A DNA stretch of 40,123 bases from Caldifarciminota bacterium (GTDB lineage: Bacteria > Hydrothermota > Hydrothermia > B15-G9): the NCBI GenBank assembly GCA_015489175.1, contig WGAI01000070.1:1-40123 (forward strand), written 5' to 3'. Within the stretch, counting starts at the first letter, position 1; each line of letters begins with the position of its first letter. Positions 23,742 to 27,971 of this stretch are shown here, in pieces. Under the pieces are notes generated by a model. The model saw nothing but the letters and a program-made list of their open reading frames with translations, made no database searches and was not told the origin of the DNA. A program made the translations under genes and the position numbers.

Positions 23742-23766
23742 AACGCTCACTCCTGATTGTGGATGC

Positions 23767-23772
23767 ATTATA
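23767..23772 (-). promoter_or_regulatory. Possible -10 box for hisS
   Basis: A perfect TATAAT on the - strand lies 26 bases before the hisS ATG. No good -35 box is present because that position falls inside the terminator hairpin of the upstream gene. Confidence 0.4.
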
Positions 23773-23774
23773 AG

Positions 23775-23806
23775 GCTAAAATAAAAAGGGCGGCCGCAGG
23801 CCGCCC
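23775..23806 (-). terminator. Intrinsic terminator of the KOW-domain gene
   Basis: GGGCGGCC (23788-23795) and GGCCGCCC (23799-23806) form a perfect stem. On the - strand it is followed by TTTTTATTTTA. It begins 26 bases after the stop of the gene at 23832. Confidence 0.85.
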
Positions 23807-23831
23807 CTCTGTTTCTATGTGCCCCAAACGG

Positions 23832-24953
23832 TCACTCCTCGATAATCTCGACATTCGCGCGAGGCACTACCACCTGTTTCCCCCCCTCAAGCTCCACTTT
23901 CAGAACCCTGACTTTCGCCTCTGTTTCGATCTCCTGAAGCTCCGGCGGGAGTTCAATGACTTTGCCGATCTGGCCGAAATAGGGTTCGCGGATAATTCTG
24001 ACGAGACTGCCAGGGACGAGACCTTCACTCAACGATTCCTCCTCGCCTTTTATCTCAAGTGTCTCATCCGGCACGATGACCTCAGGTCTTATCACGCCTG
24101 CCCTGATCTGAGTGGCACCGTTGACGGAGGCCTTCTTGCCCTCAAGCTCTTTCAGGAGTTCAAATGTGCGGTGAGCCATCCTGAGTTTGCCAAATCCCTC
24201 GGTGATGACAAGCGTAATGCCTTTACCTTCGTTTCCTGTGATTGCCACACCGATGTCGTAGCCGAGGAAATCGCGCAGGTTGGCATCGTCAATGCCACCG
24301 ACCACGATAGCGACTGCGCCAACGGAGACGGCTTTCTTTATCGCGTCAGCTGTCACGAACGAGCCTCCGACAAGAATTTTGCCCTTGTGTTCCTCGGTTA
24401 TCATGTCTGCGTCCAGGATGTCGTCCGGTGTCTCAGCGATGACATGGATGTGTCCGATCCGTTCTTCACCTATGCCGAAGATGCCCTGAATGAAACTGGC
24501 CTTCGTCTGAACGATAACACCTTCGTTCTCAATCACTTCAACCACTTCGCCGTCGATGTAGGCCCTGACCTCTACCGGGAGAGGCGGTTCCCTCAGGATC
24601 ACCTGTCCCGTGACTTTAGAGACATTTTCTATCGTTCCATCGACCGGAGCAGTGACGGATGACTTGAACAGGCCGAAAAATCCCTTTGACTGAGCTATTA
24701 TTTCGCCTTTTTTCACGGGGTCCCCGACTTTTTTGAGCATCAGAAGGGGCACATCCTCAGGCGGCACGGACAGGAGGCCAGCGACATTTATCGGAACCAC
24801 ATTGCCGGGCAGCTCTGTCCTCGCAACTACATCCTCGGCTTTCACCTTATCGCCGACCTTTTTCAACACTGTGCCCGGCAAAGGCAATCGCCTTTCCTTT
24901 CTGACGATTGTCGCCTTTGCGACCTTTAAACCTGGCGTATATGCGTGAGCCAT
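23832..24953 (-). CDS. KOW-domain protein with lipoyl/RnfC-like sandwich hybrid domain, function unknown
   Basis: A 373-residue soluble protein with no signal peptide. The N-terminus (~24-112) has two GD-x-V-K-x-x-D/E-x-[VI] turns (KKVGDKVKAEDVV; KKVGDPVKKGEII) and TAPVDGTI, typical of a barrel-sandwich hybrid fold as in lipoyl carriers, HlyD or RnfC. No MKM/DKA lysine for biotin or lipoate is seen. Residues ~125-300 contain glycine-rich alpha/beta segments (AVAIVVGGIDDANLRDFLGYD, GITLVITEGFG). Residues ~313-372 are KOW/SH3-like (PGSLVRIIREPYFGQIGKVIEL) as in NusG or ribosomal proteins. It starts one base after the stop of the DUF2723 gene, so the two are co-transcribed and probably coupled. 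I recognise no named function. Confidence 0.75.
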   Translation of the reverse strand: MAHAYTPGLKVAKATIVRKERRLPLPGTVLKKVGDKVKAEDVVARTELPGNVVPINVAGLLSVPPEDVPLLMLKKVGDPVKKGEIIAQSKGFFGLFKSSVTAPVDGTIENVSKVTGQVILREPPLPVEVRAYIDGEVVEVIENEGVIVQTKASFIQGIFGIGEERIGHIHVIAETPDDILDADMITEEHKGKILVGGSFVTADAIKKAVSVGAVAIVVGGIDDANLRDFLGYDIGVAITGNEGKGITLVITEGFGKLRMAHRTFELLKELEGKKASVNGATQIRAGVIRPEVIVPDETLEIKGEEESLSEGLVPGSLVRIIREPYFGQIGKVIELPPELQEIETEAKVRVLKVELEGGKQVVVPRANVEIIEE

Positions 24954-24954
24954 T

Positions 24955-27915
24955 TTATTTTCCTCCTACTGAAATTGTTGGATTTCCTGGTTGTTTAATT
25001 GTGCTCACGGTCTCGGCTGGCGGCAAAAGCGGCTTTAGGTCAGGCTCAACATTGCCGTATCTGTTCGCTTCTTCCAGAATCTGGAGCGCTTTCGCCGTGT
25101 CTCCCTGCTTCAGGTAGATTCGCGCAAGCTGGTTGTGCACATCTTTTTCACTCGGCAGCTGATCAACTATCATTTGAAGGTATTCCGTTGCTTTTGTGGT
25201 GTCGCCCTTCTGCAGGTAGATGTTTGCGAGCTGGTAGTAAAGCTGGAGCTTCTGGTTCTGCGGTATCGACTGGGACTTGATCGCCGGCTGCATGAGCGCA
25301 AGGGCGGAGTCGTATTCGCCCAATTCAGCATAAAGCTGTGCCATGGTCAGGTTGATGTAAATGATGTTGTTTTCGAGCTTCTTTTGGGTCTCCTTCGAAA
25401 GCGACTGGATGAACTTGTTGCCGAACCAGAACTCGTCGAGCGCGAGTCTGATGAAGCTGTCTTTCAGCGCTGAGTCAGCATTCGCCACCGTTATCGCTCT
25501 CTGCTGATACTCAGATGCGAGACGGAGCGCCACAGATGCATAGTTACGGATCAGCTTCTCATGTGTCTCGTCCTTGAAGACATGCGGATTGAAAACGCCG
25601 CGATAACGGAAGACATCGGGCCATGGCGGCTTGGCGTTCCCATATTTCTGTACAAATTCCTGCGGCCTCATATCATCGTGCAGCAGGTGACGCGTCTTCT
25701 CGATGTTAAGGCCTTCATAACCGGGCGTGGTGGAAACCGGACGGCTGTGTAATGCCATCGCCATGCCTTCCATCTCAAGATATTGCTCCCAGCCTTTCAT
25801 GTGGTCACGAGACACCGTGATTGCGAAGTAGATCGGGGTCGAGAAATTGCCGCCTTTGGCAATGACTTCTTTCAGGAAGTCCTGCTGAGATGCGAGGTAA
25901 ATCCTTGGGAACTTGAGGCCATTGCCCAGCTCGATCATGTCGTCCGTCTTGTAGCCGAGCGAGGTTGCGATCATATCCCTGATCATGAAGTCGGCGAGCA
26001 TGATATAACCGTTCTTAGTCTTCGCTGGGTAGAACACCGGCGGAAGCTTGTCGATTTGAGCCTCTGTGAAGCTGATGGGCGCGCCTTTTATCTTCAGCTG
26101 CTTGACATACCAGTTTGTGTTGAGCAATGAGAGATTAGCGATTATGACATCCTTACGCACATGCAGCACTTCCTGATCAAACCAGAGCGGGAATGTGTCG
26201 TTGTCGCCGTTCGTATACATCACAGCGCCTTTGGCTGGCGAAATCAACATGTTGTATGCGTAATCCTCTGCGATGTAGTTTTGAGAGCGATCGACTATTG
26301 GGTAGAAATGGCCGATCTGGAAGCCGAGCATAATGAATCCGAGGACAGGGCCGAGATAGCTCGATGCCTTTGACCGGAGGTATTTCAGGAGCGCTATGCC
26401 GAGTTCGTAGAGCGCTATGCCCGCAAACAGGGCGTTGAAGGTGAACGCAGGGGCGTAGAAGTAATCCCTGTCACGCACCTCCGTCAGCCCGCGTGCGAGG
26501 TTAGCTGGATTGACAGGATGAGTGGGTGAATCTTTGAGGTTGAGGTAGAGAAAGAGACCGAGACTGCCGATTATGAAAGCTCCTCCGACAAGGAGCCATG
26601 TCCTCCAGTCCTCGAACGCCGCAAGCACAAATCCGATCAATCCAAGCGCAAACATCGGAACCCACAATGCGGCATACTGCCAGCTGAAGTAAAGCAGATA
26701 AACCTTGATCTGGTCTATCAGGGCTATTCTTCTCGGGAACACCTTTGCAGGCTCATACTGCTTGCGCAACAGGACATCCATGAACGCCTTCCAGTTTGAA
26801 GGCCACGCTTCGTTGATCGACGGGTTGTGAATTGATCGCACTATCATGAACGCCTCAACGGAGACCGCTATGACGATGAGTATCAGCGCAAAACCTTTCC
26901 AGTTTTTGTAAAGTCCTGTTGCGGCATACACGCTGAAGATCATCAGGAATGTGCCGATGACGAGCGTCACGCCCACAGACGGGTTCTTGGGCAGACTTTT
27001 CGCTGTTGCCATGCCATAGAGCAGCATGAGTGCGCCAATTATAAGCAGGATGAGATAGATGAGATTTGAAGTCTTTGCATAATCTTTAACTTTCAACATG
27101 AAATAGCCAAGCAGCGCAGCGGCTGAGATGAATGCGAGCACAACTGCGCCGCCGATCTTCTCACCGGCAAGCGGTTTGTAAGTCAGCTCCATGAGTGCGA
27201 TCATAAGAAACATTGCGGCCGTCACCGCCATAAACTCCCAGTCGAGCACGAGTTTCGGATGCATGACGAGCACGAACACGAAGATCACGGGCATGATTAT
27301 CAACGCCATCAGGTGAATGCCCGACGAGAGGAAGACCACATAAAGTGCGAACAGGATATAGCGTATCGATTTGGGATCCTTGATGTTTTCCCACCAGTTT
27401 AGTGTTACCCACACGGCGAGCGCTATTGTGAAAACCGAAGGCGTGTAGGTCTCCGCCTCGATGGAGTTCATCCAGACCGTTCTCGCAAATGCGCCGAGCA
27501 GTGCGCCTGTTATCGCTGCAAGATGCGGCAGTAATTTGGGAATGCTGCCTTTGTTGGCCTTGAATTCAGCCCATTTGTCGATCGTTTTCAGGGTTATTAG
27601 GTAGATAAACCCGGCAGTGAGAGCGCCAGAGGTTATCGAGATAAGAGTTATCCTCAAAACGGGCTCGACAGGGTCGCCACCCGATAAAAGTTTGAACAGG
27701 GAAGACATTGGCAGGGGCAAAAGGGTCATAAATTTGCCCAGAATGACATAAAGCGGCGTTCCGGGCGGATGTGGGATGCCAAGTATGTAACTTGTGGCCA
27801 GAAATTCGCCGACATCCCAGAATACCACTGTTGGAGCCGTCGTCTTGAAATACATCAGCCATGTGAAGATGCTAACGAGCGAGAAAAAAATCACCCTCAA
27901 TCTCTTTTCACTCAT
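24955..27915 (-). CDS. DUF2723 membrane protein (protein O-mannosyltransferase-like) with C-terminal TPRs
   Basis: This 986-residue protein has about a dozen transmembrane helices in its first ~550 residues, then a soluble region and TPR repeats near the C-terminus (~850-950, QLYAELGEYDSALALMQ; QLANIYLQKGDTTKATEYL; QLARIYLKQGDTAKALQIL). The N-terminal signature PTVVFWDVGEFLATSY (Asp34, Glu37) and HPPGTPLY are diagnostic of DUF2723. That family has the GT-C glycosyltransferase plan and is linked to protein O-glycosylation in Bacteroidota. A role in mannosylating exported proteins, such as the large surface proteins at 1-11023, is inference. AAAGGAGGAC precedes the ATG. A consensus promoter sits just upstream. 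Confidence 0.88.
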   Translation of the reverse strand: MSEKRLRVIFFSLVSIFTWLMYFKTTAPTVVFWDVGEFLATSYILGIPHPPGTPLYVILGKFMTLLPLPMSSLFKLLSGGDPVEPVLRITLISITSGALTAGFIYLITLKTIDKWAEFKANKGSIPKLLPHLAAITGALLGAFARTVWMNSIEAETYTPSVFTIALAVWVTLNWWENIKDPKSIRYILFALYVVFLSSGIHLMALIIMPVIFVFVLVMHPKLVLDWEFMAVTAAMFLMIALMELTYKPLAGEKIGGAVVLAFISAAALLGYFMLKVKDYAKTSNLIYLILLIIGALMLLYGMATAKSLPKNPSVGVTLVIGTFLMIFSVYAATGLYKNWKGFALILIVIAVSVEAFMIVRSIHNPSINEAWPSNWKAFMDVLLRKQYEPAKVFPRRIALIDQIKVYLLYFSWQYAALWVPMFALGLIGFVLAAFEDWRTWLLVGGAFIIGSLGLFLYLNLKDSPTHPVNPANLARGLTEVRDRDYFYAPAFTFNALFAGIALYELGIALLKYLRSKASSYLGPVLGFIMLGFQIGHFYPIVDRSQNYIAEDYAYNMLISPAKGAVMYTNGDNDTFPLWFDQEVLHVRKDVIIANLSLLNTNWYVKQLKIKGAPISFTEAQIDKLPPVFYPAKTKNGYIMLADFMIRDMIATSLGYKTDDMIELGNGLKFPRIYLASQQDFLKEVIAKGGNFSTPIYFAITVSRDHMKGWEQYLEMEGMAMALHSRPVSTTPGYEGLNIEKTRHLLHDDMRPQEFVQKYGNAKPPWPDVFRYRGVFNPHVFKDETHEKLIRNYASVALRLASEYQQRAITVANADSALKDSFIRLALDEFWFGNKFIQSLSKETQKKLENNIIYINLTMAQLYAELGEYDSALALMQPAIKSQSIPQNQKLQLYYQLANIYLQKGDTTKATEYLQMIVDQLPSEKDVHNQLARIYLKQGDTAKALQILEEANRYGNVEPDLKPLLPPAETVSTIKQPGNPTISVGGK

Positions 27916-27941: not shown

Positions 27942-27971
27942 ATTATAAATCCGAATAAGCATATCTTTCAA
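27942..27971 (-). promoter_or_regulatory. Strong promoter of the DUF2723-KOW operon
   Basis: On the - strand, TTGAAA (27966-27971) and exact TATAAT (27942-27947) are separated by 18 bases. Transcription would start near 27935 and leave a short leader with an AAAGGAGG ribosome-binding site. Confidence 0.8.

Follow-up and report, generated by a model that had tools for sequence, protein, structure and literature searches.

GlmL-family ATPases act as accessory proteins to B12-dependent mutases, with a job that is not known to have been settled. The B12-binding family PF02310 is a domain of the glutamate, ornithine and methylmalonyl mutases and does not cover the diol-dehydratase types of enzyme. 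Actin-like ATPases also serve as cytoplasmic platforms, as PilM and GspL do in pilus and secretion systems. The glycerol/diol dehydratase reactivase, as described in an excerpt of one paper (PMC7674605), consists of an Hsp70-like ATPase and a swivelling domain. Here we analyzed P1 (P0001), a barrel-sandwich/swivel/KOW protein of 373 aa encoded, with an ATG start, at 23832..24953 (-) of the window, the whole stretch of 40,123 nucleotides analyzed, which comes from a bacterial genome (G000) that is 95.6% complete in 77 contigs. We found that the conserved partner of P1 is a long (~600 aa) ATPase of the GlmL/MutL family (PF13941, hereafter MutL) and not TMEM260, the membrane protein encoded next to it, and this association is well supported.

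By sequence comparison, the P1 ORF is real and not a chance frame, because full-length orthologues with 49-99% identity are found in three phyla. A 301-aa ORF antisense to P1 (window 23757-24662 (+)) is most likely the shadow of this conserved minus-strand gene. Directly upstream of P1 lies the gene of the TMEM260-like membrane protein (24955..27915 (-); Pfam PF11028 = DUF2723), which carries C-terminal TPRs; its TAA stop occupies 24957-24955 and the ATG of P1 occupies 24953-24951, so that the one-base spacing reported in the initial annotation is confirmed as base 24954. The minus strand across the junction reads AGTAGGAGGAAAATAAAATG, showing that P1 has a ribosome-binding-like site, GGAGG, of its own. 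Five promoter-like sites were found, a number that is weak by count since shuffled sequences gave a mean of 5.1, and the best match of the five (TTGAAA-18-TATAAT, 11/12; 27942..27971 (-)) is well placed just before the TMEM260 gene. An intrinsic-terminator-like hairpin with 12 pairs, 8 of them GC, lies after P1 and before hisS (23784..23810 (-)). The promoter-like site and the hairpin together make it probable that TMEM260, which heads the local transcription unit as a lineage-specific neighbour, and P1 share one transcript in the window's genome.

The three-part architecture proposed at first for P1 was borne out by an AlphaFold2 model (mean pLDDT 82.4, pTM 0.65; input of six sequences, the window's and those of five related loci with 49-88% identity), which gives a barrel-sandwich, a swivelling middle and a KOW domain. 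The barrel-sandwich hybrid (residues 11-130; 24564..24923 (-)) is read from sub-threshold Pfam matches and from model strands with pLDDT mostly >90, and it contains the two G-D-x-V-K turns noted before, GDKVK (residues 34-38) and GDPVK (residues 77-81). The sub-threshold matches cover residues ~68-119 and are to RnfC_N (24.2 bits vs a cut-off of 25.6), Biotin_lipoyl and NQRA_N (17.5 vs 25), and P1 stayed far below the cut-offs of the full-length models of rnfC (16.4 vs 246) and nqrA (13.6 vs 321). In an alignment of 100 non-redundant rows (orthologues of 330-470 aa that score 300 bits or more, taken from the 121 loci where P1 was matched), Lys was found at residues 95/96 in 0/100 rows, the canonical carrier-lysine spot being presumably P103 minus 8 by the usual lipoyl/biotinyl patterns. 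The lack of a carrier lysine was thus confirmed, and P1 is rejected as a biotin/lipoyl carrier protein. About the carrier-lysine place there is a conserved hydrophobic hairpin, G-F-F-G-L-F-K (residues 91-97; 24663..24683 (-)), whose K97, two residues off the canonical spot, is kept in 86/100 rows.

The glycine-rich alpha/beta middle third of the initial annotation can now be named from a fold search as a probable swivelling beta/beta/alpha domain (residues 131-296; 24066..24563 (-)), with the fold of RraA, the aconitase-X swivel and the phosphotransferase His domain. VIA-align comparison of the predicted model, which was limited to Foldseek-ranked chains and barely covered the barrel-sandwich part, matched residues 130-296 to RraA (Z 9.2, rmsd 3.1 Å, 127 residues), AF_0055 (Z 8.9, 2.7 Å, 111 residues) and rifampin phosphotransferase (Z 8.8, 3.8 Å, 114 residues). 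Such Z values of 8-9 are middling and the profile matches are weak: a profile of 24 orthologues found RraA at E 0.17 and NusG at E 0.08, both at the matching position and neither significant alone. With residue 202 taken as the equivalent of the catalytic His from motif reading, His occurs there in 4/100 rows, and at residues 198-201 and 203-206 in 0/100, and P1 is rejected as a phosphotransferase on the missing histidine. Also standing out in the alignment is the motif TQIRAGVxRPE (residues 281-291; 24081..24113 (-)), in which T281, Q282, R284, A285, G286, R289 and P290 are invariant in 100/100 rows.

The third part is a NusG-CTD/Spt5-like KOW domain (residues 312-373; 23835..24020 (-)), carried by 92/100 aligned rows, and here the NusG-like assignment turned out to be weak by sequence and clear by fold. 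Pfam KOW matched at E 0.23 (11.8 bits vs a cut-off of 22.3) and NusG at E 0.027, while residues 310-373 of the model form a KOW/SH3-like barrel that superposes on an Spt5-type chain with Z 9.4 and rmsd 1.1 Å over 51 residues (VIA-align). The best Foldseek match of the model was Thermotoga maritima NusG (E 7e-6, low TM-score). Pfam reported nine families for P1 up to E 10, and the NGN domain is none of them. In the open-access literature we found no paper combining DUF2723 with KOW and none relevant for a barrel-sandwich hybrid with KOW, "kow" there being an author name.

P1 orthologues were found in 139/147 genomes of the window's own phylum, in 29/39 genomes of the phylum of a genome titled Cloacimonadota NORP72 (which includes G148; the NORP72 phylum below) and in 56/64 genomes of the phylum of a genome titled Latescibacterota (the Latescibacterota phylum). 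As a rule a genome has a single full-length orthologue, and some genomes have in addition a shorter paralogue over residues ~50-297. Viral contigs scanned for P1, DUF6754 and MutL gave no relatives. We inspected the P1 loci of 54/139, 12/29 and 9/56 positive genomes of the three phyla, respectively, and in 12/54, 12/12 and 6/9 of them the gene immediately upstream, with the same orientation as P1, is MutL; 31/54 own-phylum loci, two of them at contig ends, have neither MutL nor TMEM260 upstream. By coordinates, P1 and MutL are adjacent in 27/29 genomes of the NORP72 phylum. The initial annotation could not see this partner because in the window's genome MutL is on another contig than P1 (G000:C29; PF13941, 429.9 bits).

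Presence and absence follow the same pattern. PF13941 occurs in 139/147 own-phylum genomes, of which 136 have both genes, with P1 alone in 3, MutL alone in 3 and neither in 5 (Fisher p 5.6e-6). The corresponding counts are 29/0/0/10 for long MutL in the NORP72 phylum (p 1.6e-9), where long and short forms were judged by open-frame length (that of G174 is cut by a contig end and that of G168 is in two pieces), and 52/4/2/6 in the 64 genomes of the Latescibacterota phylum (p 6.9e-5), where strong MutL matches were counted and four genomes show only ~1e-5 matches; none of these Fisher tests takes phylogeny or genome incompleteness into account. Two P1-negative genomes of the NORP72 phylum (G161 and G176) keep only a short canonical MutL. 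Three of the five own-phylum genomes that lack both genes (G126, G127 and G142) are 94-95% complete, and the exceptions to co-occurrence include G049 (94% complete), with MutL and no P1, and G080 (96%), with P1 and no MutL. P1-MutL distances correlated with r 0.95 over 48 pairs and 0.86 over the 42 pairs left when three KOW-less paralogues, two divergent rows and L116 were dropped, correlations that had no control gene and are not counted as evidence.

The KOW-less P1 paralogue adjoins, or shares a chain with, a second MutL. Single chains of 839-990 aa joining MutL to a KOW-less P1-like part were found at six loci (L088, L105, L106, L107, L109 and L110), and they represent a second, paralogous system. 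In 12/16 of the KOW-less paralogue loci searched, TQIRAG lies at most 21 residues from the protein end, which places the motif in the core tied to MutL and not in the KOW domain; since the link to MutL also survives in paralogues without a KOW domain, this domain is not required for the core function. Two strongly diverged P1-MutL pairs (L134 in G159 and L135 in G158; ~36% identity) are still adjacent, and no quartet of the kind described below was seen at L135.

In the two other phyla, P1 and MutL stand in a seven-gene module with the order C6-MutL-P1-DUF6754-C11-C12-C15 or DUF6754-C11-C12-C15-C6-MutL-P1. The quartet DUF6754-C11-C12-C15 is part of the P1 locus in 4/54 loci of the own phylum, 11/12 of the NORP72 phylum and 9/9 of the Latescibacterota phylum, and the small gene C6 in 11/12 and 7/9 loci of the latter two. 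DUF6754 (PF20539, E 6e-111), C11, C12 and C15 are predicted to be membrane proteins from their hydrophobic stretches, and C6, C11, C12 and C15 matched no Pfam family over cut-off, no NCBIfam family and no PADLOC model. PADLOC likewise returned 0 families for P1 and the six cluster proteins of locus L143, and an anti-phage defence system is rejected on that result. A profile comparison showed no relation between DUF6754 and C12, an AlphaFold2 prediction of the DUF6754 domain from two sequences reached pLDDT 48.7, PDB profile searches with long MutL, DUF6754 and C12 yielded no useful match, and the open-access literature searched does not mention DUF6754. DUF6754 occurs in 140/147 own-phylum genomes with 1-7 matches per genome, whereas there is one P1 orthologue as a rule, and its association with the P1/MutL pair is loose (Fisher p 0.0034). 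In the window's genome, two contigs carry three complete quartets between them, and MutL is found on yet another contig. In G142 (94% complete), four DUF6754 copies were found with neither P1 nor MutL; the quartet may work there without the pair, or P1 and MutL may fall in an assembly gap. At three loci (L050, L100 and L102), a gene that reads as glycine dehydrogenase subunit 2-like (gcvPB) precedes C6 and MutL, and glycine-cleavage-like genes cluster beside C6/MutL in several lineages.

P1 and MutL are thus adjacent or fused, and jointly present or absent, in three phyla, and in two of these they cluster with C6 and four membrane-protein families. We give about an even chance to the reading in which P1 acts as swivel and adaptor for the long GlmL/MutL-family ATPase and the pair serves a DUF6754-C11-C12-C15 membrane complex; it counts against this reading that in the window's genome all the parts are on different contigs. 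The ATPase, which by family presumably has an actin/Hsp70-like fold, would form a cytoplasmic pair with P1, and ATP binding and hydrolysis would move the swivelling domain of P1, by analogy with the glycerol/diol dehydratase reactivase. The TQIRAGVxRPE end of the swivel would be the contact to the ATPase, and docking onto client or membrane partners may fall to the KOW domain together with the barrel-sandwich and its FFGLFK hairpin. The pair would assemble, activate or reset the membrane complex, and a single pair could serve several quartets, three in the case of the window's genome. More tentatively, we see a real possibility that three phyla of uncultured bacteria share a new ATP-driven membrane machine, in which the GlmL-like ATPase, C6 and P1 act on interchangeable DUF6754-C11-C12-C15 sets, one pair driving or resetting several. 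If this is true, the GlmL fold would be shown to work outside B12 enzymology. A GlmL form that apparently lacks a mutase client and has a swivel partner and a membrane set would offer a direct way to probe the job of the family, and the distribution of DUF6754 in its phylum indicates a membrane system that is near-core and uncharacterised.

Several other readings can be considered. P1 and long MutL might be standing structural subunits of a membrane machine, with the ATPase as an actin-like platform of the PilM/GspL kind and not as an assembly factor. Actin-like ATPases do act in this way, the cluster with the four membrane-protein families is fixed in two phyla, and right after one quartet of the window's genome (contig C26) there is a type IV pilin-like ORF (L160:4441-5007) with FTLIELMIVVAIIAILASIAIPQY near its start; but a single P1/MutL pair faces up to seven DUF6754 copies per genome, neither a secretin nor an assembly ATPase was noticed nearby, and the named members of the MutL family are accessory proteins, so we consider these structural roles rather unlikely.

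A role of P1 and MutL as the chaperone that reactivates an adenosylcobalamin-dependent mutase, with the membrane genes as mere neighbours, is quite improbable and is disfavoured by the distribution of PF02310. We searched this family in 12 chosen genomes of the 147, a search that covered clients of the glutamate, ornithine and methylmalonyl mutase types. G000 and G018, which have the pair, gave no match over cut-off and only 22-26 bits in frames of ~450-780 aa, while G126, G127 and G142, all without P1 and MutL, gave strong matches (E 1e-29 to 1e-32); the other seven genomes tested, all with the pair, had matches with E 1e-9 or better. Client enzymes of the glutamate-mutase type look absent from the window's genome, which is 95.6% complete, and by eye no mutase was noticed among the neighbours at 16 + 16 loci. 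What speaks for a reactivase is the family itself, since the MutL of L143 matches PF13941 over its full length (425 bits vs a cut-off of 27), the NCBIfam GlmL models match long MutL at E 1e-47 to 1e-69, and the name GlmL (methylaspartate mutase accessory protein) and the ornithine-degradation relatives suggest such a role; swivelling and Hsp70-like ATPase domains also make up the glycerol dehydratase reactivase, according to the excerpt cited above (PMC7674605). Long MutL, however, stays under all the cut-offs of the NCBIfam GlmL models (163-233 bits for L143 and L097 vs 204/475/600). In the open-access literature, no paper combining ornithine aminomutase with MutL was found.

The KOW domain could instead make P1 a transcription or translation factor that binds S10, Rho or RNA polymerase, its linkage to the ATPase reflecting regulated synthesis of membrane proteins. 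Its KOW part is indeed closest to NusG/Spt5 both by fold and by sequence, with T. maritima NusG as the top Foldseek match, but Pfam did not report an NGN domain, the KOW-less paralogues keep the MutL link, and KOW/SH3-like barrels are widespread with many partners; such a factor is accordingly a low-probability reading.

Least probable is a functional unit of TMEM260/DUF2723 and P1, in which P1 regulates or docks to a protein glycosyltransferase: in its favour are the one-base spacing in the window, the promoter-like site before and the terminator-like hairpin after the two genes, and the position of TMEM260 immediately before P1 in 11/54 own-phylum loci, all in the window's class; but TMEM260 has this position neither in the other 43/54 nor in any locus of the two other phyla (0/12 and 0/9), and it is kept in 142/147 own-phylum genomes, including all five without P1 and MutL, with no association in presence and absence (Fisher p = 1). 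The conserved DUF2723-KOW pairing suggested for checking across genomes is therefore rejected (11/54 and 0/21 loci), and the linked production that had been proposed is plausible for the window's genome, given its transcript-like ends, but does not reflect a conserved functional pair; TMEM260 would be a later operon neighbour of P1 in this lineage.

P1 and the partner ATPase resemble several known systems in part. The likeness of P1 to the N-terminal barrel-sandwich of RnfC and NqrA is confined to residues 68-115, where the match is weak (24.2 and 17.5 bits) and below cut-off; no other part of either protein is present. Residues 130-296 appear to share the fold of RraA, the aconitase-X small domain and the phosphotransferase His domain, but lack the catalytic His and any curated sequence match. 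With NusG and Spt5, P1 has the C-terminal KOW fold in common, but it has no NGN domain and is tied to another kind of partner. An ATPase combined with a swivel is common to P1-MutL and, as far as the excerpt describes it, the glycerol/diol dehydratase reactivase; in P1-MutL the two are usually on two chains, and on one chain in some paralogues. P1 differs in adding the barrel-sandwich and KOW domains, no dehydratase was seen, and no reactivase model is among the Pfam or NCBIfam matches. The partner ATPase shares with the GlmL/MutL family, which NCBIfam covers with TIGR01319, NF040745 and NF040744, a full-length PF13941 match far over cut-off, but it has ~110-150 extra C-terminal residues and scores below the NCBIfam GlmL cut-offs, and instead of a mutase client, of which none was found, it is P1 and the membrane quartet to which it is tied.
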